Part shown: piece after piece, positions 7,705 to 41,739 of the stretch
Layout of the letters: each line of letters begins with the position of its first letter
Position numbering within the stretch: position 1 is the stretch's first letter
Origin: Fragilaria crotonensis
Taxonomy: Eukaryota; Bacillariophyta; Fragilariophyceae; Fragilariales; Fragilariaceae
Assembly: GCA_022925895.1 (NCBI GenBank)
Contig: JAKSYS010000563.1
Span: 1-41,739 of the forward strand
Length of the DNA stretch: 41,739 bases
Direction of reading: 5' to 3'
Position numbers and translations under genes: made by a program
Notes under the pieces: model-generated
Seen by the model: only the letters and a program-made list of their open reading frames with translations
The model's database searches: none
Told to the model about the DNA's origin: nothing

Positions 7705-9969
7705 CTGTCGAGTTGTCTCATGGATGCATACGACACGACTGCAACACCTGCGGTATATTATTCCCCGGATGAATCCACGTCAGCGTCCTTGGGATTAGTA
7801 GCTTTTGTGGACGATTGCAATGGGCAGGCAAACAATTTTTTAGCACCAGGATCTGATGAGACGCTTCGGGATATCTTGTTACACACGCAGAAGAATGCAC
7901 AATTGTGGAATGACTTACTCCACTCGAGTGGTGGTGCACTGGAATTATCCAAGTGCTCGTGCCAAGTACTTCATTGGTGGTTTACACAGCAAGGAGCACC
8001 ATTTTTGGCCCCGAAACAATCTGCTCACCAAGAGGTGTTGCGTGTCATAGACCGATCCACCGGCACAACACACCAACTACCTCTGCTGTCACCGTATGAG
8101 GCACATAAGACATTTGGGCATTATAAAGCACCAGCTGGGAACCAAACCGAACAATTTCGAAAACTCAAATCAAAGAGCGACGAGATTACGACCTTCCTGT
8201 GGACATGCCCACTTAGGCGACTCGAAACATGGACTTTTTATTATGCTTGCTACCTTCCAAGTGTTGGTTATCCGTTAGCTTGCTCATCCCTTACACGACA
8301 ACGACTGGATCAGGTACAGCGGAAAGCGACGTCGATCATTGTCCCACGATGTGGTTTTAATCGGCATACCAAGTGCGAGATCCTCTATGGTCCTCTGGAG
8401 TTGGGTGGTGCGAATTTCCGTCATCTATATGTCGAACAAGGAATCGGACAAGTGTCTTTATTTATGAGGAACTGGAGATCAAAATCGACAGCGGGGAAAC
8501 TCCTCCGCATTGCGGTCGGATGGTTCCAATATCAAGTCGGTACCTCATACTCACTTCTGGAACGAGTCGACACGGTCCTCCCTCATCTCGAATCCAAGTG
8601 GTTGGCCTCGTGTAGGGACTTCTTAGCTTCCATACAATCATGCTTTCAACTCGACAGTCCGGGTATTCCTAAGTTTCAACGCTATCATGACACACATATT
8701 ATGGATGCTATATTGACGTCTGCGTGGTTTTCAGCATCGGAGATTCGACGACTCAACTACTGCCGCCTTTACCTCCAAGCACAAACAATTTCTGATCTCA
8801 CAGAGGTTTCGGGGCGTTACTTGGATCGAGCGAAGTATGAAGGTCGCTTCTCGCATAAGAGTAGCTGCACTCATGGAATGTGGATCCATCAGCAACGTCC
8901 GTCGCCGGTGGAGTGGAAATTGTGGCAACGCGCGAATTTGTTGTGGAGTGATGAATCTGGAAAGTTACATCAGGCACTGGGCCCATGGCTAGACACTATT
9001 GACAATCATCGTCAAACTCATTTAGCCTATCAATTGAACATGCGTTTGTGGCTGCGAGAACACCAGGACTACAGACTGTGTAAATCGTCGAAGAGGACCG
9101 AGGAAGGGCAGTACAGCTATTGGAGGACTGGAACACAGGTCGAATGGCACCAGATTCCTCTCGAAGCGGTTCCTGTGGAGGTTAGTCAAGTCGCCGCTGA
9201 TGAGTGGATTGTAGTCGAGAGAAGTGTCGTTCGTGTTCTTCATCATCCTGTACAGGTTGCAACGTTTGAACAATATGTTGAGGATCTTGAGCCATGGGAG
9301 TATGACTTATTATCCTGCACGAACCTACCGACGGATCCCTTTTCGGTCGGACTTGCTTTATCTCAGGGAGTACGAGGCGTCAGCGACGGGTCGGTATGGC
9401 TTAAGCAAATGGGTGCGTACGGATGGACGTTGAGCACGGATTTAGGAGAGAGGTCAGCTGAAGGAATGGGCCCAGCCCCAGGAGCAAACCCTAATTCGTA
9501 TCGGTCCGAAGCGTATGGAATGTTGGCTATGTTGTGTTTCTTGAAGCGCCTCGCAGAGTTTACGTACCAACATGAACCGTGGCACGGTACACTAGCGACA
9601 GATAGTTTGAGTCTGGTGGAGACGGTACTTGGCATTAAACGAAAACCATCCGTGATGGAAGCTGCAGTCTCGGAACCGGAACCCGTGCAGCTTCCATTGG
9701 ATCCACTGAGTCCAGAATGGGACTTGATTGTTAATATCCGGCGGTTGCTTCGCGAAATGCCGGGGCTCAGTCTGGAACATGTCCGCGGTCATCAAGATCG
9801 TCGCGGCACTTATCAGCAATTGAGTCTCATGGCACAACTAAACGTGGATGCTGATGCCCTGGCTAACACTTTCCAGCAAGTACGGCGCGCTTCGACCTCA
9901 TGCCTTGTTGACAGAGGAGGCCGGCGTTCATTTGATTACACCAAAGGGAACGGTCACAACGAAATATAA
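7699..9969 (+). pseudogene. Retrotransposon B RT motif C, connection and RNase H
   Basis: The longest open stretch of B. It opens with the end of the RT palm (AFVDDC, the catalytic Asp pair, about 7801), passes through a ~450-residue connection (KCSCQVLHWW, CPLRRLETWTFYYACYLPS, LRRLNYCRLYLQ-like block) and ends with an RNase H domain: VSDGS (first Asp), SYRSEAYG (Glu), LATDSLSLV (second Asp), HVRGHQD and NVDADAL (last acidic site). RNase H removes the RNA strand after first-strand synthesis. The frame runs out of homology near 9880, where a frameshift moves into the next ORF. The GTG at 7699 is only the frame edge, not a real start. Confidence 0.8.
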
Positions 9970-10903
9970 AACAGCAATCCGACATCAAGCGACTTACGGT
10001 CCATTATTAGCACATCTTCAAGCTCGGAATGGATGGAACGCCAGTACGACGGAACGGATCAATTGGAAAGCCCACGCTGCATGCCTACACAAGCGCATCA
10101 AGCGACGCGACCACTTCATTAAGTTAGTTCACGAGATGCTACCGACTAATCATCGTCAGCATAGACGTGATCCCAGTCGACGAGGGTGTCCGGTGTGTCC
10201 GTGTGGTGATGAGGATTGGGACCATATACTGCGATGCGCGCATTCGAGTCGAGCGGCGTGGCGAGCGAACTTACTCGAGGTCCTTGGAAAGACTTGTGCC
10301 AAATGGAAAACTCGTCCCGGTCTACGAACTATACTTTTGGACGGTATCAAGGGCTGGTTCGCGTGCGCTGACCCAGAGTCATACCAATTAGCCACGGCGA
10401 TCTATGACGACGAGTACGAACGCCTCATTACACAACAAAACAAGATTGGTTGGAGACACATATTTCTTGGCAGATTCAGTTGCGAATGGGTCGAATTGCA
10501 GGACGCTCATTATGCCACAAGACCAAATTATAACTCGAAGAAAAGCAAAAATGGTTCCAAGTGGCAGGTTGCTATGATTGGGCGTTTGTGGGACAATTGG
10601 TATCTGTTATGGGAAAGCCGAAACAATGATTTGCACGGAGCAGACGCCAGGCTGAGCGCGATTGCGGACAGGAGGAATGCATTACAAACGTTGAGGGAAT
10701 TGTATGCGTTACGAAACATGTACGAACCGACTGTTCAGGAGTTATTGATGGAGGATGTGCGCGACCATGAAGCCAAGTCAACGTGGCATATAAAAACCTG
10801 GTTGCAGATGATCGAACCGATTCTGAGATTAAGCATGAAGAGGGCGACTAAATTAGCGACTTCGGGGATGCGATCGTTGAAGTCATACTGGGCAAAACGA
10901 TAG
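9880..10903 (+). pseudogene. Retrotransposon B C-terminal zinc-knuckle domain
   Basis: The continuation of B after a frameshift: KYGALRPHALLTEEAGVHL, then INWKAHAACLHKRI, FIKLVHEMLPTN and a putative zinc knuckle GCPVCPCGDEDWDHILRC. A tryptophan-rich helical segment follows (IGWRHIFLGRFSCEW, LWDNWYLLWESRNND), and the protein ends with GMRSLKSYWAKR at 10903. A Cys/His motif plus basic tail is common at the C-terminus of non-LTR ORF2 proteins and may bind the RNA template. The same domain is seen in E and A. Confidence 0.75.
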
Positions 10904-11047
10904 GACATGAGGAAAAACCAAGTTTGTGGGGTCTAGCCTAATCCCAGGCTGCGGTCTCACCGTGTGGGTCGAGCGTCTATATACCCAGGGCACAGCGGCA
11001 GCACGTTAAATTAGATTTGGAGTTTTTTTTTGGAAGGTCTCACCTAC

Positions 11048-12387
11048 AAATCATCACGACAAAAGTATCGGACCATCGGCAACTCAAGATTCTATACCTA
11101 CGTCTTTCAAATTCCTGCAGCCGATAGACACTATTGCATACGACTACTAGCCGCGATTCTCAAGAAAAATCCTTCGTCGCGGAGACGGTGGCTACGATAT
11201 ATGAGGATGGCGAGATCACGCATGGAAAAAGACGGCAGACGCCAATTGCTGTTGACACAATTTTTTCGACCCGTCAGTAATTGAGATGTGACCAGGGGCA
11301 ATCAAGTATTTGACATGCATGTTCAATAGGGGGAGGGATATATTATTGTCGCCGACCTGTAATATGGTCAGGCCACAAGGGGTACTCACTTTGGTCTTGG
11401 TGAAAGATTGAAGACGGAGACTAACCCAATAATTAGGTTTTATTTTATTTTATTTTATACCTACGTCTTTCGCGTCGCTCCAAGAGTACCTACGTACGTT
11501 ACCAAGGACTCAACGTCGATTAATTTCGGACTGGACGCAACATGCATCAGACCTGCAAGTATGGAGAGCCATGCGATCTCGAGAAAAAATACACTTGGCA
11601 ACCGATGGAGGACTACTTGGATCATCAAGTACTCACGGTTGGGTTCTAGCAACAAGCAAACTCGTTCTTTTTACCGGAGCAGGCCCAGTTGATGGTCCTT
11701 TTGATTTAGCATCATCAACTCGGAGCGAACTCGGAGGGCTAGCAGCATCTCTCGTGTTCATTATGGCCATCTCTTGACATTGGGGACTGCGCCATAATGC
11801 ATCATTCAAATGGTACGCTGACAGCAAGGCAGCAATTTCGAGGGTTAACAAATTTGCATGTTCACAAAAACACGCTACAAGAATGCCATACGATGCAGAC
11901 CTTCTATCTCTTATAAGAAGCCTGCTCAAAGAACTTCGACGTCCATTCAAACCGCTATGGGTGAAAGGTCATCAGGATAAAACACGGTCATACGACACCC
12001 TACCTCGTTCAGTACGAATGAATATTGACGCCGACGTTCTGGCCACGAAATATCGCACTCACGGGCGTTTTCAATCATCACAGTCTGTGGATCATCAGCA
12101 GTGCCAACAAGTCTCCTTCACCATTAACGGTCGACGTATAAACGGTCACTTTGACGAAAGCATAAGGTACCATATTAATGGATACCACTTGAGACGATAC
12201 TTACAGCATAAGAACTCTTGGAGTGACAAAACCTGGAATGAAATTGACCTCGCTACGTTTGGAAAATCTTTTTGTCGATTAAGCCCAACAAAGCAGGTCC
12301 GACAAACGAAATTTGTACATGGCCACCTCCCGATCGGAACGAGAAGGTACAAGCAGGCTCGGATAAAGGATGAGAAATTAAAAGTGT
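11048..12387 (+). pseudogene. Retrotransposon A connection and RNase H (interrupted by C)
   Basis: Resumes after insertion B (VSPTNHHDKSIG) to PTSF at 11108, skips insertion C, and continues ASLQEYLRTLPRTQ from 11472. RNase H motifs are LATDGG (Asp), SSTRSELGG (Glu), WYADSKAAI (Asp), WVKGHQD and NIDADVLA. TGA at 11775-11777 interrupts between FIMAIS and HWGLRH. After RNase H come FTINGRRI, RYHINGYHLRRYL and WNEIDLATFG blocks and KFVHGHLPIGTRRYKQARIKDEKLK, broken by insertion D. Apart from the TGA, the frame is open from 11472 to 12387. Confidence 0.8.
11109..11455 (+). mobile_element. Insertion C: 5'-truncated retrotransposon 3' end, 347 bp
   Basis: Flanked by a perfect 16-bp duplication TATACCTACGTCTTTC (11093-11108 and 11456-11471). 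It encodes only the last residues of an ORF like A's C-terminus: DRHYC, SSRRRWLRYMRMARSR and a terminal TQFFRPVSN (A has DRHYC, SSNRRRWLQRVK, TSYFSPK). An untranslated region follows, ending AATTAGG and (TTTTA)n. The short 5'-truncated insert with a simple-repeat tail is typical of aborted target-primed reverse transcription. Confidence 0.85.
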
Positions 12388-32149: not shown

Positions 32150-34620
32150 GCGAATTTGGATGCCCACTCTGTATATGGTTTTGTCTCAAGAACTGTGGAA
32201 CTGTTGTGTGAGATGGATATAACAAAACAGGGGGCCACGACAGTGTTTCCAGAGACAAGGTGGTATGTTGGAGACCACTTCCACTCCCTCAACAGTGTTG
32301 ACTCGTGTTCTTTAATTTCTTCTGTTGTGGATTGAACAACCAGTTGGTATCTCTCGTCCGGATCCTCGGGTGAGTCAACAACAACTACAAGAGCCAAACG
32401 ACAGGGAAACTTCCCATGTTCCCCAAAGTCAATTATCATCCAGTCATGTATGGGACCATCGGACTGATAGCAGGGATGACATCGAAAGGTGTGGACATCT
32501 CGTTTGTATTCAGTACAAAAGGTTATTGAGTCGGATTCCTTAAAGGAATCAAAAAGAAACTCAATCAACTCCAGGGGAAGAGCAAGTAAATCACGGTGAG
32601 TTCTGGTGTCCCATTCAATTTTGTACTGAATTTGTTTTCGATTTGAATCGATAAACACAGCCAAATGTTGCTTGTCCGGTGCTCTGAAAGATTCCATTCC
32701 TTGTTGTTTCATCATCATGGTGGCTGTCGGGTACATCAGCATCACCATCTGGTTGCTCCCATATGCGTGTGCGTATGGTGTCGATCATGAAGGAGTACAT
32801 TAAACGTTGGGCTGCCTGAAGTTCATATGCAGAACCCTCAATTCGCTTCTGTGCCCGTCTCCCAGGGTGCTTTGCAGCAGGAATTAGAAGTGATTCTGGA
32901 CGCTGTGCACAAAAGTTCACTGGAGAGCCAAACCGAGACATATCATCCACAATGTGTAACAACTCATGGAATTTCGGAAACTTCCATGCATCCTCGGCAT
33001 TGCTTTTCTGTCCTTCCTTCCTTATGATGGTTCCCTTTTTCTTACCCTTTTTCTTGTCATCCTCCTTTCCCTCAACTTTCAAGGGAATGGACTGTTTACA
33101 TATCCATGAAATTGCGAATGGAATCCTGATGTTTCTTCATTTCATTTGCAACATGTGCTGGATTTGTAGTCTCCCAGTAATGACTCTGGTTTAGCCAAGC
33201 ATCGAAACAAAGGAGAGATTCAAGTACTTCAAGGACCTCAGGAACCTTCTTAGTTGTTCTTTTCTCAAGACATGTTTGGATCATTTGCCATCCTGCTTCA
33301 TATTGGAAGAGGATGACAAACAAAAAACGAGGCCAACGCGCGTTCTGATGCAGTTATCTTTGTCAAATTTGTTACCCCATTGCTGAAATCTGTTGATGGA
33401 TACTCCTTTCGGTAGGTTTGGCGATGAGACTTGTGAAATGCTATTGCAAGGTCATCAAGGCAGCCTTCTTGGATGCTGGAAGACTGTCCAATATAAGTTT
33501 TGTTACTTTCTCGATGACACCTTTCCGAAATGCATGCATTGTCTCCACAGGAGTGGCCCCAAAGATTCCACGCTCAGGGTCAGCAAAGGCAATGTGTTCA
33601 AATGCATTTTCAAGTTTATGTTGAGACCATCGTTTCCTGAGATCATCATCATTACTCCTGGCAATGAAACCCATATCCGAGGCTACCAGGTATTTGCAAT
33701 GGACATCACAGTTCTTCAGATCATCATAATTGACATCACAGCACCGATGAGGGCGTTGGATTCCACTGGTGTGAACACCATACCGACCACACAGCATATC
33801 TCCTTCTTGCATATCTTGAATGATGAACAACACACATGTGACAATGTCGACACAGATTCTACCCTTTGGACCAATTGGCAAATGAACACCACACAGTTGT
33901 GGTGAACATTTCGAAAGGTCTCAATACAGCATCCAGCTCCTTATGATAGATACGAATGGCATCGCCCATACGAAGTGTCTGCTTCTGAGCTGATGAGGAC
34001 TTCCTCTTTGGGAGAAAGCCATGATAGCCCCATGCCTTGATACTCCTTCTGAATTTTTCTGTAAAAATGGCTGGAGTGAACATGTAGGGTTTAAGTGGCG
34101 ATCATTCCTGTTACAGAGGTACGATCAATCCATTGGATGATTGGAACAAACAATTGCTTCTGAGGATCTGTGATTAATCGATCATACGCCTTGCGATAGA
34201 CACTCCCGGACAGTGCCTCACCCAAAACATTGCTGCCTTTCAATTTGTGGTAGGGCTTCAGGGGATCATTGATATCGATGGCAAGGTTTTCTGCAGTCAT
34301 AATGCTTGGATTTTGCAGCAAACTTAGCAACTGTGAAGCGAAGTCAAACAAATCACATCTGATGGAGAGCCATGATGTACATCCACTCTTCGTACAAAGG
34401 GAAGCAGTCTTTTCCCATTACGAACTGAGTTGATCAGGGCATCAACATTTTTGGCACGCGAGAGTCCACCCACTGGGTTGTAAGAATAATTATCAGCAGA
34501 TGCAGAGCGTGCCCACTCCAGGACTTGACCAAAAGTGTAGTCGGGTGCATTGGCATGGTCCAGGATTTTGAGGAGAGAAACAGTCCACTTCTGATCGGTA
34601 GTACATCAGGGACCCCAGAT
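32146..34620 (-). pseudogene. Transposase relic, Plavaka/KDZ-like
   Basis: Fragments on the minus strand match the intact P2 transposase block by block: ICFDFASQLLSLLQNPSIMT, VPIIQWIDRTSVTG, AIFTEKFRRSIKAWGYHGFLP, GDMLCGRYGVHTS..PHRCCD, GIFGATPVETMHAFRKGV, ESLLCFDAWLNQSHYWE, KFHELLHIVDDMSRFGSP and KHPGRRAQKR. Catalytic-site decay is visible: the second Asp position (VVDVMH in P2) is Glu-Thr here (PVETMH), and stops or frameshifts occur near 34090, 33890, 33330 and 32700. A different amino acid background from P2 shows it is another subfamily, not a recent duplicate. It ends at TAG 32146-32148. Confidence 0.75.
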
Positions 34621-34939
34621 CTGTAGTATATACACAATTCCGTAGAAATGATTATCGTATTCCTTACTGATTGCAGGGTTTTGATCATTTTTATTTACTT
34701 TATAAATAATGTTTTGTGTTTGATGTCCATTCACAGTGTGTTTTCATGTTTTACATACTATTACTTGCAAAGGTTGCTTTCTACTTCATCGAATGTGCTT
34801 TAAAGATATATTTCAAAACGCAAGTGCAGTGTGAGGATTCATTAGTGATATTGTATCGTTTCCTTTATATTGTATAGACTTTCTAATATGCATCTGCCTC
34901 AAAGCGTCGTTTGTCAAATATGCTTGACCTTAGATTCAG
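34621..34939. other. Spacer between the two divergent transposases, left part
   Basis: AT-rich, no ORF supported. It lies between the 5' ends of the P1 relic and P2 transposase, so any element termini or promoters should be here; no clear terminal repeat was found. Confidence 0.4.
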
Positions 34940-35121
34940 TCGATTTCATGCATTCTTCGTATCTCCAACTATGTCACAATTGCCGCGCCATATTTTCCAT
35001 CGATTTCATGCATTCTTCGTATGTCCAACTATGTCACAATTGCCGCGCCATATTTTCCATCGATTTCATGCATTCTTCGTATCTCCAACTATGTCACAAT
35101 TGCCGCGCCATATTTTCCATC
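34940..35121. repeat. Three perfect-length 60-bp tandem repeats
   Basis: Units begin at about 34940, 35000 and 35060 (TCGATTTCATGCATTCTTCG, then CCAACTATGTCACAATTGCC) with one C/G difference. The period is divisible by three, so the transposase frame stays open through the array, but the composition looks non-coding. They sit about 70-250 bp upstream of the likely start and may be subterminal transposase-binding repeats or promoter repeats. Confidence 0.85.
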
Positions 35122-35189
35122 ATAGTATCGGCACTTCGTCAACTGATAAAAACAACGAGGGTGGCAGTCCATCTGCTTTAGTGATCATC

Positions 35190-38164
35190 ATGTCAGGAAA
35201 CAATGAAGCAGCGTCTCCCCATGCTGGTTGCGTGTGCTTCAATATCAACTGCTATACAACATTCAGAACTGAACGAGGTCTTCGGCAGCATTTATGGCGA
35301 AGTGCTCCATGTCGTGAGTACATGTCGTTACCAAGGCCTCTCGTTGCCGATAGTGTTAACATAACTCGTGAGAGTACATGGTGCCGGCGCCTGGGATATG
35401 GTGTTGAATCGTCACGCTTAAATCCTTTTATGAGTGCAGATCCTCCATCATACGAACCGTACGCAGTTTTTGACTATTCAGCTAATGTTGATGATGTCGC
35501 TGACAATGATTTCATGGACGATGAAAGGGTTGAATGGGATGATAACAGCTGTACTGTGGAACTGCTAGATGATGTGGCGATATCTTGCCCAGTTTTTCAT
35601 GCCATGATGGAACGCATTGGAGCTACGGAGCGCCATGCAATAATGGTTTTGCATCACGATGTTGAGCATCGAAACATTGTGAATCTCCTCAAGCTTTTGG
35701 AGGATGCACAATGTCCTGACTACATGTTGCAGAAGGTACTAGAATGGGCGTACAATGCCAAATTAGAAGGCTTTGATTTCAATCCAAGAGCTACAACAAG
35801 GAAAGCCAACATCCAATGGATGTACAAAGCTTTGAAGCACTCGCACCAAGGACTCCCTAAGGTATTGCAAGTGAATCTGGAAGATCATGAAAAGCCTCAA
35901 GATATTATTTGTTTTGATTTTGTGCCTGCATTGTTGTCGTTACTGCAAGATGAGTCATTGATGGTAACCGAAAATCTTGTCCTCAACAAGGATTATCCGA
36001 TGTCGATGTACATTCCAAGTGATGGCAAAGTTGGAGAGGCAAATAGCGGTTCACGTTACCGAGAGCTATACAATGAACTGGCGCAAGGGAAGAATCAGCT
36101 TCTTGTTCCAATTATAATGTATCTTGATGGCACTGCCATTGACAGCAAGGGGCACATTGAGATTTGTCCAGTGTCGTTCACAACATCTCTTTTCACTGAG
36201 AAAGCACGTCGTGATGTCAAGGCATGGCGTCTGATGGGTTATGTTCCTGACCTGAACCGTGGGCGATCCGGAGCAATGAATAGTTTCGCAAATGCAAGTG
36301 CACAAGAGAAAGGCCGTACAACGCGTAACTTCCATAAGGTCATGGATGTAATGATGGCAGGTTGGGTGAAAGGGCAAGCTGCTTTAGATGATCGTTTGCA
36401 ACGAGTACCTTTGAAACTTGGTGACAGGTGGTTTGTTGTTGAAGTTGTGTGCCCTTTATTTGTCATCAATGATGGCAAGCAAGGTGATCAACTTTGTTGC
36501 CGAGTCAATGGCCATCACAGCAGTACATTGCGTCACCACCGTTCATGTGATTGTTTGTATGAAGATCTTGATTCCCCCGAAGTTCTGTGCACATTCTTAT
36601 CAACTGATACAATCAACCATGTATCTCGATTCGGATCACAAGAGGATCGTCGTCAGCTTTCAATCTATAAATGTGACAATGCGTTCAACCGCATTCAGAT
36701 GGGGCAGAATCCCTATGGCATCTTCATGTGTGCAGTCGTTGATGTTATGCATACCGTTCAGCATGGCATCATCATGTATGTTCTCGATTGCTTCAAGAGA
36801 GGTCTCAATGCACAGTCTCTTGCAATTCTAGACAGAATGGCTCACGTATTCGACAAGACATGCTGTCAGAGTATTCGCTCATCGTTTCCCAGAACTGATT
36901 TCTCCAGAGGAATAACAAACCTGACCATGGTGGAATGTTCAGAGCAGTCAGGTGCTTTGTTCCTCATTTCGTCCTTCATTATGCGCATCAGAATGCAAGG
37001 TTTGGATTTTCTTGAGCACAATTTTCCAGCGTTGGAATTGCGTGCGGTGTTGGGGACGATGGAAAGCCTTTTATGCTTTGAGGCATGGCTGGATCAGTAC
37101 ACCTTTTGGGAGATTGGAGACCCACACAATGAGGCAACTGAAGCCGAAGCTGCGATTTGTTCTCTGATGAAGCTCATCACAACTTATCTTCCAAGAGAAA
37201 AAGGCAATGGATGGAAAGTGTCCAAATTCCATGAAATCAAGCACATCGTACGTTTTATTTGCACGTTTGGTGCACCGCGAGGTTACAATGCTTCCCGGCC
37301 TGAGGAACACCACAAGGCTCATGCCAAACGTCCTGGTCGGCGGGCACAGAAGAACGTCGACACCATAGACCAGCAGTGTGGCAGAAGAATTGCAGATGCA
37401 TTTGTGATTGATACCATGCATTCTCTGTTTGAAAAAACACCTCAATTGAATACATTGTCGCAAGGCAGAGTTGCCAATTTGGCTGACGATGCTGCAGATC
37501 CTCCGACAAGGGAAGTAGGTTCTGGGACATCGTATTACGTCAGGTCATTTCTTGACCCTTCCCATGAGAATCAACTCTGCCGAGACAGTGTTTTTGACAC
37601 TCAGACAAAAGGAACCATCAATCTGGAAGATAATCTTGAGCTCTTCATCTTGCAGACTTACAGTGACTCCGATCTCGATGACAACGGAGTGGGAAGTGTC
37701 AAGTGCTGCACAGAGTATCATAAGTATAATGATGAAACGGACGAGAAGATGGTATCCATTCGCTGCCACCCAAACTACCGGGGAAAGGGATATTCCTGGT
37801 ATGATTGGGCTCTCATTCGTTACGAAGATGATGATGGAAATGAGACGGAATTCCCATCTCGTGTTGTGAGTTGCATACCACGCCACAGCAGCATTGCCGG
37901 TGTTGAGAGCACCACCTTTGACCTCATTATTCAATGCTGCGGTGAACCTTCGGGGCGTAAGTCCTTTTGTTCACAGCGTGGACGTTCAAGAAAGAGTTTT
38001 ATGTTGTTTCTTCTGAATCTGTTGTTGGCTTGTGCTTTGTTCTTCAAGGTCCAGATATGGACTCTGATGTCATCGTTGTTACTGACAAGTCCAAGTGGCC
38101 ATCGATGTTCTATGAGTCAACGAAGGTTGATTACACCGCACAAGTGTCAAGGACAATTTGGTAG
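35190..38164 (+). CDS. Plavaka/KDZ-like DDE transposase, nearly intact
   Basis: I take Met at 35190 (ATCATCATGTCAGG) because the open frame upstream is the 60-bp repeat array. Residues 14-41 form a C2HC zinc finger (C16-x4-C21-x12-H34-x6-C41). Candidate acidic residues are Asp313 in IIMYLDGTAIDSKG, Asp518 in VVDVMHTVQHG and Glu705/706 in SRPEEHHKAHAKRPGRRAQK; KFHEIKHIVRFICTFGAP precedes the last. A Cys/His cluster (GHHSSTLRHHRSCDC, 441-455) sits between the first two. This order matches Plavaka transposases of the CACTA superfamily as I know them. Such enzymes bind element ends and catalyse cut-and-paste. Near 37957 the frame changes, with homology to the P1 relic continuing in the new frame (KEFYVVSSESVVGLCFVLQ) to TAG at 38162-38164. 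The change coincides with a 20-nt GTAAGT...CAG segment. Confidence 0.75.
37957..37976 (+). other. Frame-break: 20-nt GTAAGT...CAG segment
   Basis: The 20 nt start GTAAGT and end CACAG; removing them joins GEPSG to PWTFKKEFYVV and restores the frame conserved with the P1 relic. Twenty nucleotides is far below ordinary intron length, so a 1-2 nt frameshift beside a chance splice-like string is equally possible. Confidence 0.4.
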
Positions 38165-40714
38165 ATAGAAATGTAATTGGAATAACATTAGGCTTTTTGG
38201 TAACTGTGACATCCCATACTGGATGATCCGTGTTTTGGCCGCGAAGAAATTACCATAGATATTTCCGACACGTTCACCCACCATGGATGTTCCATGTCGG
38301 ATCAAGCGGCCATCCCATCCAATAAGGACACCATCAGACAATTTGATTGCAATTCCGGCGTATTCGCGATCCGTTCCAGGAAATTTGCCTTCATGTTCGG
38401 AAGAACAAAGTACCAATCTTCGGTGCTGCCGGGATAGTCTTCGGTCCAGATGGTGAACCCCTGACTTGCATCATTTACGTCAAAATGAGACGAATTTGCC
38501 AAATTGATCGACAAGTCCATGCTCAGGGTAACACGGCATCGGCCCCCCTCCATACCCCGAGCGTGCTGCATCCCAGAATCATTTTCGAAGTCCTGCATCA
38601 CCCTGAGGGCCGCCGGGATGGCAACAGATGCAAGTATAGACGCGGCGTCCACGGCTTTCGAGAGCACCGGGATTGCTTCCTCACTTGAAGATGTTACGTA
38701 CTGCACACTATTCCAAGACTTGTCAATGCGTCTCCCAATTGGATGCATCCCTCAAAGTCACCATTGCCAGCACGAGCACCAGAACTGCCCCTTTCACGTG
38801 ACACCATGCGACAATGCTTATTGATGTCGGTCAGAAGTTCCTCGCAACCCGATCCAACAATGTGCGGGAGGTAGCGAATCTGCACAACCGAAAGGCGCTC
38901 GAAAGGGAGTTGACCATCGGTCGAGGGCGGTATTGTCACATGACACTCAAGTCAAGCTCACTGAATTCTTTCGGATCAATGACCCACGTTGTCGACGGGT
39001 CAATTTTCTGTCCCATGTGTAGAAATCCCGGCGCATAGTGGCGACCTCCCAGTCTGGCTGACATCGAACGCGAGAAGGCTTCTTGGAATAATTTGGCCCC
39101 GGACTTTTCATCGGCATTTGACAAGTTGTCCCCTCGCCCAATGTAGTCAGGTGGGAGTCCAGGTCCTTCCTCGTCCGCCAGTTGCCTTGCGGTGAACCAC
39201 TCTCACAAGTGATCTGGGTCTCAGCCCCGGGATTGCATGAGGGAATGGCAGCAAATTTGTGGCTGAACGGCGAATACTCCATTTCCAAATGGAGCACTTC
39301 TTCGCATTTACAAGTCGTGAAACATAAGACCCATTTCCAAAGCAGTTGTTGGGAGTCACGCCGAAGTCGCAACCAGTTTATATCCATTGGCACATGTGAA
39401 TTCAGTAGCCCCGTCAATAGAGAGCGGCGCTCCTGTGACAATAGAATACCCCAGCTTGGGAAGGATGACAATGCAGGCACGGTAGAACTCGTCGCTGTTG
39501 TTGTTTGCAGAAGGACAATAATTAAAAGCATTTCCATCTCGGACAGCAATTGCTAAGTTCACGGCATCCACATCATCGAGCAGACATGCTTGCACAGGAG
39601 CAACAGGAGCATCCTGGTTGCATCTTTGCCTTTCTTCTTGTTGTACATCTCAATAACAGGACGACCTCTCGAGAGAATGCAATCCATAACAACAACATCC
39701 AGATCAGAATGACTTTCTCAAGACTGTACATTTCATCGGGATGTTGGCAACGTTGAGCATGACGTGGTCATCACCAAAAGCATGTTTGAGGCCTGAGTCA
39801 ACCCATTGAACAGGAGTCTTGCCAATAGTTTCATCGCAAAACGGCAATGATGCCGGTGCCGGTAGGGGGTACTGGCACAGATGCCATTGGGTCCACTGGA
39901 ACAGATGCCGACCTGTTCTTCTTTCGTCTCCTTGGCTTCCTTTGCTTTTGGAGAGGTGGTCGAAAAGAGTTGAACTTCAAAGAAAAGCTTCCACGGACTG
40001 CAAAGGCAAACATTTTGCTATCACATTGGCAACTTGATTGTGGCTTGCCAAAGCAAGCGATGGGTGCTGCCGAAGTAAAGGACCTGACAAAGCTCCCGAT
40101 TCCTTGAGGGTTTTCCTTGCAGCCTTCACCGTCTTCCATGATCTTCTTCCAGCGCGAAGCAAATCAACATCCAAACCTTCCGTTTCCCTGATGATCTGCT
40201 TCGTCGCCTTCACTGCCTTTAATGTTCTTGTCTTCTTCACTTTGGCATCACCCGTAGGCACAGATCGAACTTTCGTGGCAACAATGATGACCCGGGAGAG
40301 CTCACCAGGCAGCGTCCGTTGAAATACACCAGAACGAACCGGACGTTGACGCCAATTGTTGACCTTTTGCTTCCCTTTCTTATTGCATCGCCTACTAGCA
40401 CTTAATCCATCGCTCTTACTAAACCCACAGGCAACATGAGCCGTCAAGGTACCCTTCGATGACGTAAAGTTCTTCAATTCTAACTTCACAACAACCCGAA
40501 TCTCACGCATTTGCTCAATCTTCTTCTCCTTGTCCAGCTCAACCTTCCTCTTCCGCTCCTTCTTCAACGACATACTTGATGTTGATTTCTTCTTCCCCCC
40601 ATTCTTCATTAGCCTGACTCGAATTGGTGCCTCGCCCTCCGAAGATGAATCCTCAAACCATTCCCTCATTGTCATTGATGAACAGGAAGCAGTTGAACCT
40701 GCAGTCTCCGTCAT
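38147..40714 (-). pseudogene. 2-oxoglutarate/Fe(II) dioxygenase-like gene of unit P2, frameshifted
   Basis: Starting near Met 40714 (MTETAGSTASCSS) the minus strand encodes a Lys/Arg-rich N-terminus (KKERKRKVELDKEKKIEQMR) and helices. Fragments follow through frame changes: VVMDCILSRGRPVIEMYNKK, LDDVDAVNLAIAVRDGNAF, KLFQEAFSRSMSARLGGRHY, QLPFERLSVVQIRYLPHIVG. The C-terminal part reads as a double-stranded beta-helix: LANSSHFDVNDASQGFTIW (HxD, His codon 38487-38485), TEDWYFVLPNM, a frameshift near 38395, YAGIAIKLSDGVLIGWDG, RLIRHGTS (distal His at 38296-38294) and AKTRIIQYG (candidate 2OG-binding Arg). HxD...H...R is the signature of Fe(II)/2OG oxygenases, which include TET/JBP base oxidases and AlkB. 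Membership in TET/JBP is not shown. It ends at TGA 38147-38149, overlapping the transposase 3' end by 18 bp. Likely cargo of P2. Confidence 0.6.
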
Positions 40715-40780
40715 GACACCAGCAGCAAGTAAGAATGAAATCCAAAACCTGGATGTTGTTCTAACCACAAGCCAACAAAC

Positions 40781-41520
40781 GTGGGTCGACACAAAAAGCT
40801 TCCAGCGTCGCGAAACTTGTCAAGAAACCAGCGACTGACAAGAAATTCACAACCTGGGTCGTCTTGTTCTAGCCACACGCCGACAACCAAATCTTCTTTG
40901 GCTGAGCTTTATATATGTAAAACACAAAGCCAGAAGGAGATTGGAGGCCAGCAAATGTGGGTTGACACAAAGCTCCCAGCGTTGCGAAACTTGTCGAGAA
41001 ACCAGCGACTGACGAGCAATCCACAACCCTGGTCGTCTTGTTCTAACCACACGCCGACAACAATGTCTTCTTTGGCTGAGCTTTATATGTGTAAAACACA
41101 AAGCCAGAAGGAGATTAGAGGCCAGCGAATGTCGGTCGACACAAAAAGCTTCCAGCGTCGCGAAACTTGTCGAGAAACCAGCGACGGACGAGAAATCCAC
41201 AACCCTGGTCGTCTTGTTCCAACCACACGCCGACAACAAAATCTTCTTCGGCTGAGCTTTATATGTGTAAAACACAAAGCCAGAAGGAGATTGGAGGCCA
41301 GCGAACGTGGGTCGACACAAAAGATTCCAGCGTCGCGAAACTTGTCGAGAAACCAGCGGCGGACGAGAAATCCACAACCCGGGTTGTCTTGTTCCAACCA
41401 CACGCCGACAACAAAATCTTCTTCGGCTGAGCTTTATATGTGTAAAACACAAAGCCAGAAGGAGATTGAGGCCAGCGAACGTGGGTCGACACAAAAGATT
41501 CCAGCGTCGCGAGATCAGCT
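40781..41520. repeat. Tandem array, 4.2 copies of 174-176 bp
   Basis: GTGGGTCGACACAAA-type unit starts fall at 40781, 40957, 41131, 41307 and 41481, i.e. spacings of 176, 174, 176 and 174. Shared blocks include CAGCGTCGCGAAACTTGTC, CCACACGCCGACAAC and GCTGAGCTTTATAT. The period is not a multiple of three, so the long ORFs crossing it on both strands change frame between copies and are not genes. It sits directly upstream of the dioxygenase gene. Confidence 0.85.
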
Positions 41521-41739
41521 GCAAGGTGTTGTCAAAGTTGCTCGGGCTCAAGGGCAGAGAGGGTTTGCGAAAGGCAATGAATGATGACATGAGATGTCTT
41601 TCGCACTGAGGAGCGAATGTGTTTCAGTTGTTGCGAAAATAGACTAAAACGAGTTTTCAGGATCGCCCAAACCATACTCTAGTAGAATACATACTACGTA
41701 CTCACGTATGTCACAAGCAGCAATGGGGAGACTCAACCA
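41521..41739. other. Window end, nothing recognised
   Basis: No ORF or repeat supported after the tandem array. If P2 is a discrete element, its right terminus may lie here or beyond the window. Confidence 0.4.

Follow-up and report, generated by a model that had tools for sequence, protein, structure and literature searches.

A diatom Plavaka-type transposon whose transposase gene stands tail to tail with one for a predicted TET/JBP-fold dioxygenase

Introduction

When a DDE transposase gene runs tail to tail into a dioxygenase-like gene, do the two travel as one mobile element, and what would such an enzyme do for a transposon? The question is raised by contig C518 (JAKSYS010000563.1), the 41,739-nucleotide stretch analysed here and called the window, from a diatom genome of 62.1 Mb. 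C numbers denote contigs of this genome and L numbers loci read there; papers given by PubMed Central (PMC) number are cited from excerpts of their text. We consider it likely that the window contains a cut-and-paste Plavaka transposon whose second gene encodes a TET/JBP-fold DNA dioxygenase that would relieve silencing by methylation. The element and its two genes are:

34604..41739, no strand: Plavaka-type transposon, left ~7.1 kb; boundary sharp and common to copies, right end past the contig end at 41739
34604..34626, no strand: left terminal inverted repeat, CATCAGGGACCCCAGATCTGTAG; its partner in the C156 copy ends ...CTACAGATCAGGAGTCCCTGATG
35184..38165, plus strand: Plavaka-like DDE transposase gene, open; 75–79% identical to the open C30 copy
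38150..40729, minus strand: TET/JBP-fold dioxygenase gene ('OXY'), frame-broken here, open in C659; fold from predicted structure

Ends, copies and recurrence of the gene pair

A DNA search of the genome revealed three near-identical copies (97–99%), and a subfamily at about 78% that covers both genes. The left boundary of the copies is sharp at CATCAGG (window 34604), and the right end reads CCTGATG. Full length is 10.03 kb in the near-identical C156 copy and 9.66 kb in C487, and the window element is put at about 10 kb, which is larger than the interval 35190–40714 first noted. Termini of the form CATCA...TGATG stand at both ends of six delimited copies (C156, C487, C594, C137, C529 and C30), five of which are flanked by matching 2-bp target duplications (CA, AT, TG, TT and CA, respectively, in the first five). 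Two of these represent divergent families, with elements of 10,124 bp in C529 (CATCAGAAGGTGCG) and 9,669 bp in C137 (CATCAGGGAGGCC). In the window type, in C137 and in C529, the transposase and the dioxygenase genes both lie inside the inverted repeats of the delimited Plavaka element.

The frequency of this arrangement was investigated at protein level, two dioxygenases and two transposases serving as queries, and 40–60 of about 430–590 rough candidates were scored. After merging, the matches listed comprise 102 dioxygenase and 75 transposase loci, and the counts in this and the following paragraph hold among these. A Plavaka-like transposase lies within 4 kb of 41 of the 102 dioxygenase loci, where uniform placement would give about 1.4 such neighbours, and 40 of the 41 pairs are convergent (P 2.6e-23 for orientation). 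Outside the window's two subfamilies, 28 pairs are convergent and one is not (P 3e-16). The pairing, which the first-pass annotation of the window had proposed as a union of transposon and oxygenase, does recur. Sixteen loci were read: eleven possess both genes, four (L011, L012, L013 and L020) possess the dioxygenase with a partner resembling that of a Mutator-like element (MULE), and one (L025) has the transposase with no dioxygenase in the 6 kb read.

The two genes could also be neighbours merely through the nesting of repeats, the oxygenase belonging to an independent repeat or to a family of host genes; 62 dioxygenase loci (one with a divergent neighbour) and 35 transposases have no convergent partner of this kind within 4 kb. 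We regard this as very improbable, since the same inverted repeats enclose both genes in the three divergent Plavaka groups named above and in three MULE-type elements, and eight of the 62 loci have a MULE-like partner. Because the lists stop at the candidates scored, unpaired loci are no evidence of absence; two of them, in C650 and C84, have a partner when the DNA is read.

The transposase

On the plus strand the transposase, noticed at first as almost intact, reads without interruption from 34887 to 38168 (stop counted), and in C30 it is a single open frame of 993 codons. The following motifs were located:

36120..36134, plus strand: YLDGT, likely first catalytic Asp, assigned by motif order
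36459..36554, plus strand: FVINDG (likely second catalytic Asp) to RSCDC (putative Cys motif; CRxC in the relatives L021 and L025)
37230..37244, plus strand: HEIKH, matching the EnSpm/Transib/Plavaka motif H(3)H; no change at H682 or H686 across an 11-row alignment
37296..37313, plus strand: RPEEHH, probably with the catalytic Glu; E706 unchanged throughout that alignment

The order expected of a Plavaka transposase is D, D, C(2)C, H(3–4)H, E; of these, C(2)C is present in L021 and L025 and altered to HRSCxC in the window type, and the catalytic Asp residues are putative. The Plavaka profile PF18759 (cut-off 26.3) matches the transposases of L021 (31.8 bits) and L025 (46.1 bits), both of which align with the window-type transposase. 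The latter (P0003) has no Pfam match of its own, the transposases of L023, L016 and L018 have no Plavaka match in Pfam, and a PHROGs search with P0001 and P0003 gave no match. The structure model of the transposase is poor (pLDDT 46).

Plavaka has been grouped with EnSpm/Transib (PMC12730594). The PlavakaB branch, to which every TET-bearing fungal Plavaka family belongs, is defined by CATCA..TGATG termini and a 2–3 bp target duplication (PMC12730594, section 3.2.2), while Zisupton, the characterised KDZ group, makes 8-bp duplications (PMC12730594). Of the initial designation 'Plavaka/KDZ-like', the first half stands, on the PF18759 matches in relatives, the H(3)H and E motifs, the termini and the duplications. 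Membership in KDZ was rejected because the duplications are 2 bp long.

At L025 (C5:56500-62500) an open Plavaka transposase was found with no dioxygenase within the 6 kb read. Some Plavaka elements of this genome may thus be without the dioxygenase gene.

The fold of the dioxygenase

A 546-residue core of the dioxygenase, built from 40 aligned paralogues, was modelled with AlphaFold (pLDDT 76, pTM 0.83). The predicted model is a double-stranded beta-helix, and structural comparison places it closest to the TET/JBP enzymes. Foldseek placed CcTet first (E 6e-9), and ranks 1–20 were occupied solely by TET2, CMD1 and CcTet. VIA, which re-ranks candidates from Foldseek and is not an independent search, gave TET2, CMD1, CcTet and NgTet1 at ranks 1–16 with Z 17.1–14.5, 240–284 residues aligned and a root-mean-square deviation (rmsd) of 3.5–4.8 Å. 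The best of these was 4nm6_A (Z 17.1, rmsd 4.3, 282 aligned) and the sixteenth 7vpn_B (Z 14.5, rmsd 4.2, 258 aligned). In a list of viral models, proteins named JBP1/TET appeared at ranks 2 and 8.

The first-pass annotation had read the gene as 2-oxoglutarate (2OG)/Fe(II) dioxygenase-like and compared the pairing with that of TET/JBP enzymes and fungal KDZ transposons; the predicted fold supports a TET/JBP type, and no Pfam profile does. In particular PF12851 (Tet_JBP), whose matches had been suggested as a check, was matched by none of the 40 members at E≤1. A PF12851 search of the genome was also without a match, yet control genomes were equally silent, so this result is uninformative. Since the Tet_JBP profile is blind to the family, a census of TET/JBP genes based on it would miss such genes.

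The same fold is found in AlkB, FTO and PHD2 (Z about 11), and the oxygenase might, like these or the prolyl hydroxylases, be directed at protein or at DNA damage, with histones or transposition intermediates as conceivable targets. We think this improbable. After the TET/JBP rows VIA lists ABH3 (Z 11.6, rmsd 3.6, 186 aligned), FTO (11.1), AlkB (11.0) and PHD2 (10.6). All 16 TET/JBP rows outrank every other family listed, with a gap of about 3 Z units between rank 16 and the next, and the other rows listed align 168–201 residues against the 240–284 of the TET/JBP rows. In addition, the Asp at the position that contacts 5-methylcytosine (5mC) is present in every row that carries a letter there, as described next.

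The predicted active site

Three motifs of the window gene were assigned from a 40-row alignment:

38470..38493, minus strand: SSHFDVND, iron-ligand HxD and, at H+5, the Asp of the 5mC-contact position
38440..38460, minus strand: GFTIWTE, with a Trp at H+13, where CMD1 has Trp358
38285..38302, minus strand: IRHGTS, the distal His for iron, followed at H+2 by Thr

Counts refer to the rows of this alignment that carry a letter, and residues are equated with those of known enzymes by spacing only, without superposition. H448, D450 and D453 occur in 38/38 rows, and the distal His (H512) in 38/39, the exception (L039) being a fragment that ends there. The HxD (SSHFD) and distal His (RHGTS) noticed at the outset are present. 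We take the iron-binding His of TET2 to be residue 1382, which would put Asn1387 at H+5. The N4 of 5mC is held by Asp350 (His345+5) in CMD1, Asp234 in NgTET1 and Asn1387 in TET2 (PMC7854593). R352, found in 39/39 rows, is by spacing only a candidate for the counterpart of TET2 R1261. The AKTR motif (38228-38239, minus strand), whose Arg was a candidate for the co-substrate residue, is present, but the position varies (of 36 rows, 16 have R and 10 have K); that Arg is therefore unlikely to be the ligand of 2OG, and we have rejected it.

Copies, damage and selection

Against the core profile the window gene falls into seven homology pieces, from 39714 to 38195, with homology of the full protein extending up to 40729; this copy of the dioxygenase gene is probably dead. 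The C659 copy is one open frame of 898 codons, and that in C121 is a 742-codon frame without the N-terminal part. In C529 both genes of the element are open, at 1085 codons (in the stretch read) and 747 codons.

The tail-to-tail arrangement is shared by C30 and C121, where 12 and 19 bp separate the two stops. The overlap of the two genes, put initially at 18 bp, measures 22 bp counting stops and is confined to the damaged window copy. As the genes of these two better-preserved copies do not overlap, we attribute the overlap to damage and have discarded it as a feature of design.

The dioxygenase core is under purifying selection. The ratio of nonsynonymous to synonymous substitution (dN/dS) was 0.14–0.26 in nine comparisons, two of which (both window-type A vs B) are near-repeats and several of which have a high synonymous divergence (pS 0.62–0.72). 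A single comparison of the N-terminal part gave 0.33, while the transposase gave values of 0.23 and 0.11.

The dioxygenases of L015, L016, L018 and L019 possess long C-terminal extensions with conserved Cys pairs, which the window type is without. Perhaps these are a zinc-binding reader domain. Relatives beyond this genome were sought in viral and prokaryotic collections; scans of viral contigs returned 65, 39 and 45 pattern stretches and one of prokaryotic contigs 27, with no relative among them.

A second carrier and exchange of the gene

At L011, L012, L013 and L020 the dioxygenase stands with a convergent gene that is not Plavaka, of up to 1104 codons. Three of six open reading frames gave matches to MULE (17.8–20.8 bits, cut-off 27.6), and the same three to SWIM (14.4–16.6 bits, cut-off 19.6), all sub-threshold; the L020 partner has a weak ZSWIM-type match only. 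A search with the MULE-like gene furnished the partners of the eight loci mentioned above, 8/8 convergent among the matches listed. Mutator-like elements have long inverted repeats and 8–11 bp duplications. Three MULE-like elements could be delimited here, with 75–78-bp inverted repeats and 9–10-bp duplications (ends allowed a shift of up to 8 bases), and the dioxygenase lies inside the inverted repeats of all three. It has thus spread to a second type of transposon.

Trees were compared to see how the gene was distributed between the carriers. In that of the dioxygenase, from which 6 of the 40 rows were dropped as short (including the MULE-paired L045) and in which unlabelled rows include loci with undetermined partner, the five MULE-labelled rows require three label changes, forced by well-supported branches; the L020 label is the weaker one. 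The window-type dioxygenase is sister to a MULE-type group (support 99/98), and the window-type transposase clusters with the transposases of L022–L024 (100/99). The L023 dioxygenase, however, lies across the deepest, fully supported branch from that of the window type. The two trees conflict, and therefore the dioxygenase gene has been exchanged between transposons. In fungi, too, a TET/JBP gene has passed between transposon superfamilies (PMC12730594, section 3.4).

A possible role against silencing

How might a transposon profit from such a gene? Host DNA methyltransferases would silence transposons by 5mC. The transposon-borne enzyme would flip out this base on copies of the element and oxidise or otherwise convert it; silencing would be relieved, transposase made, and the element could move. 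DNA as the substrate, chemistry on 5mC and an anti-silencing role would all go together in this scheme. The genome contains 13 C5-methyltransferase matches above cut-off, counted piece by piece. In Phaeodactylum tricornutum that has lost DNMT5a, methylation is lost as well and young transposons are over-expressed (PMC9998398). Five copies of the 78% subfamily showed 18 transitions in 2,100 CpG site-copies vs 19 in 11,415 at other C/G (odds 5.2, P 2e-6). Transversions were not raised (2 at CpG vs 8 at other C/G, P 0.66). This pattern fits methylated elements.

Several results weigh against a Plavaka transposon armed with a TET/JBP-fold enzyme that relieves silencing. The CpG excess was measured in transposon copies only. 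One of the six delimited copies, C30, has no target duplication, and among the copies read from the window's two subfamilies none has both genes full-length and open. Pfam gave no credible match with the 40 dioxygenase members at E≤1 or with single proteins at E≤5, nor did a sequence-profile search of the PDB with the dioxygenase. In the model, 64 of 546 residues have pLDDT <50, including segment 449–454 with D450 and D453, so the geometry of the active site is poorly predicted. Foldseek TM-scores are modest (≤0.35 by query and ≤0.52 by target among the TET rows listed), and NgTet1 appears at rank 26, behind the first FTO rows. Finally, the position corresponding to TET2 R1896 is not occupied by a conserved Arg, the alignment having His in 24 rows, Asn in 11, Asp and Ser in one each and gaps in three; a classical 2OG reaction is therefore not assured.

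This Arg holds the far carboxyl of 2OG in TET2 (R1896) and NgTet1 (R289; PMC7854593), and CcTet has R385 (PMC11040006). In CMD1, which uses vitamin C, the essential Trp358 (His345+13) occupies its site, and the pair Arg244/His249 binds vitamin C and the base (PMC7854593). Could the present enzyme, then, have the TET/JBP fold and dispense with 2OG, attaching in the manner of CMD1, with vitamin C or another co-substrate, a larger group that masks 5mC rather than removing it? A co-substrate other than 2OG is possible from the sequence, and we hold this version of the enzyme to be conceivable, though distinctly the less probable one. In its favour, besides the missing Arg and the presence of CMD1 among the top fold matches, are three positions of the alignment: Trp at H+13 (35/38 rows, the other three having Phe), Thr at distal His+2 (39/39; CMD1 Thr399) and Ser at H-8 (38/38; CMD1 Thr337; PMC7854593). 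The equivalences to CMD1 are, however, by spacing only, and a Thr at distal His+2 is implied for TET2 too (PMC11040006). Other basic residues (R508, R511 and K532) could hold 2OG. The Arg244/His249 pair was not located: R352 (39/39) and H362 (36/39) are 10 residues apart vs 5 in CMD1. VIA places TET2 slightly above CMD1 (Z 17.1 vs 15.7).

Still more speculatively, the family might be an unrecognised branch of the TET fold in diatom transposons of at least two superfamilies, employing a co-substrate such as vitamin C to place a bulky new base on its own DNA, a hypermodification that would hide it from the methylation readers of the host.

Comparison with known systems

Under the reading that we prefer, a Plavaka transposon with a TET/JBP-fold enzyme directed at its own methylation, the nearest known systems are the TET+ Plavaka (PlavakaB) transposons of Agaricales fungi (Kojima 2025, PMC12730594). 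Shared features are the Plavaka DDE transposase, the CATCA..TGATG termini, 2–3 bp duplications, a TET/JBP gene aboard and exchange between superfamilies. The elements differ in their diatom host, in HxD here vs HxE in the fungal PE type, the Plavaka one (PMC12730594), and in a dioxygenase too diverged for detection by Pfam. The 11 fungal lineages that PMC12730594 names do not include the MULE-like second carrier. The element is of the same kind as the fungal TET+ transposons, and what is new is the host, the sequence divergence, the second carrier and the altered co-substrate site. The fungal KDZ transposons resemble it in an accessory TET/JBP gene with a likely anti-silencing role; unlike them, it has a Plavaka transposase and termini, and 2-bp duplications vs the 8 bp of Zisupton (PMC12730594).

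Among enzymes, the dioxygenase is like TET2, CcTet and NgTet1 in its predicted fold, being matched best by these in VIA, in its iron triad and in the residue for 5mC N4 (Asn in TET2, Asp in NgTet1), and unlike them in the His, Asn or other residue at the 2OG-Arg place. With Chlamydomonas CMD1, a 5gmC-forming TET homologue, it shares the predicted fold (7cy7_A, Z 15.7, rmsd 4.1, 275 aligned), the HxD...H triad, Asp at H+5, Trp at H+13 and Thr at distal His+2. Identity to CMD1 is, however, 12% over the aligned part, and the excerpts of PMC7854593 do not present CMD1 as cargo of a transposon.

Among the papers listed by searches of the open-licence PubMed Central literature, none on TET/JBP genes in diatom transposons was seen. 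A TET-carrying diatom Plavaka with termini of the fungal type, together with a MULE-like carrier, would mean that the partnership is very old or that capture happened repeatedly, and it suggests that elements of distant kingdoms met silencing by DNA methylation with the same kind of enzyme. Since 5mC keeps young transposons silent in P. tricornutum, which is editable, both the release of silencing by a transposon-borne TET-fold enzyme and its chemistry are directly testable there.

Host and other features of the window

Profile searches for the silicon-transporter family returned 19 matches in the genome, 18 of them above cut-off (best 4e-193), and across 14 control genomes a single match, in a Bacteroides, under cut-off. 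The first guess of a probable diatom is supported by these matches. At C97:29749-33762 one open frame contains three silicon-transporter domains. A tRNA scan of the window found none. Two further features were recorded:

32152..34599, minus strand: second Plavaka transposase, degenerate; profile pieces in several frames, with the element boundary at 34604
40771..41512, no strand: tandem repeats, about four ~175-bp copies, seen as self-matches offset by ~175 bp; within the element, past the dioxygenase gene at its 5' end

The window element appears to have inserted into the 5' part of the degenerate transposase, giving a transposon within a transposon. Three 60-bp tandem copies (34934-35121) lie inside the element, directly ahead of the point where the transposase begins. 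Near the right end of the C156 copy, in the part beyond the window, there is a third open frame in two pieces (9322-10161 and 10468-11091 in the joined coordinates of L001+L050), and the DNA around it is ~67% alike between the two subfamilies.

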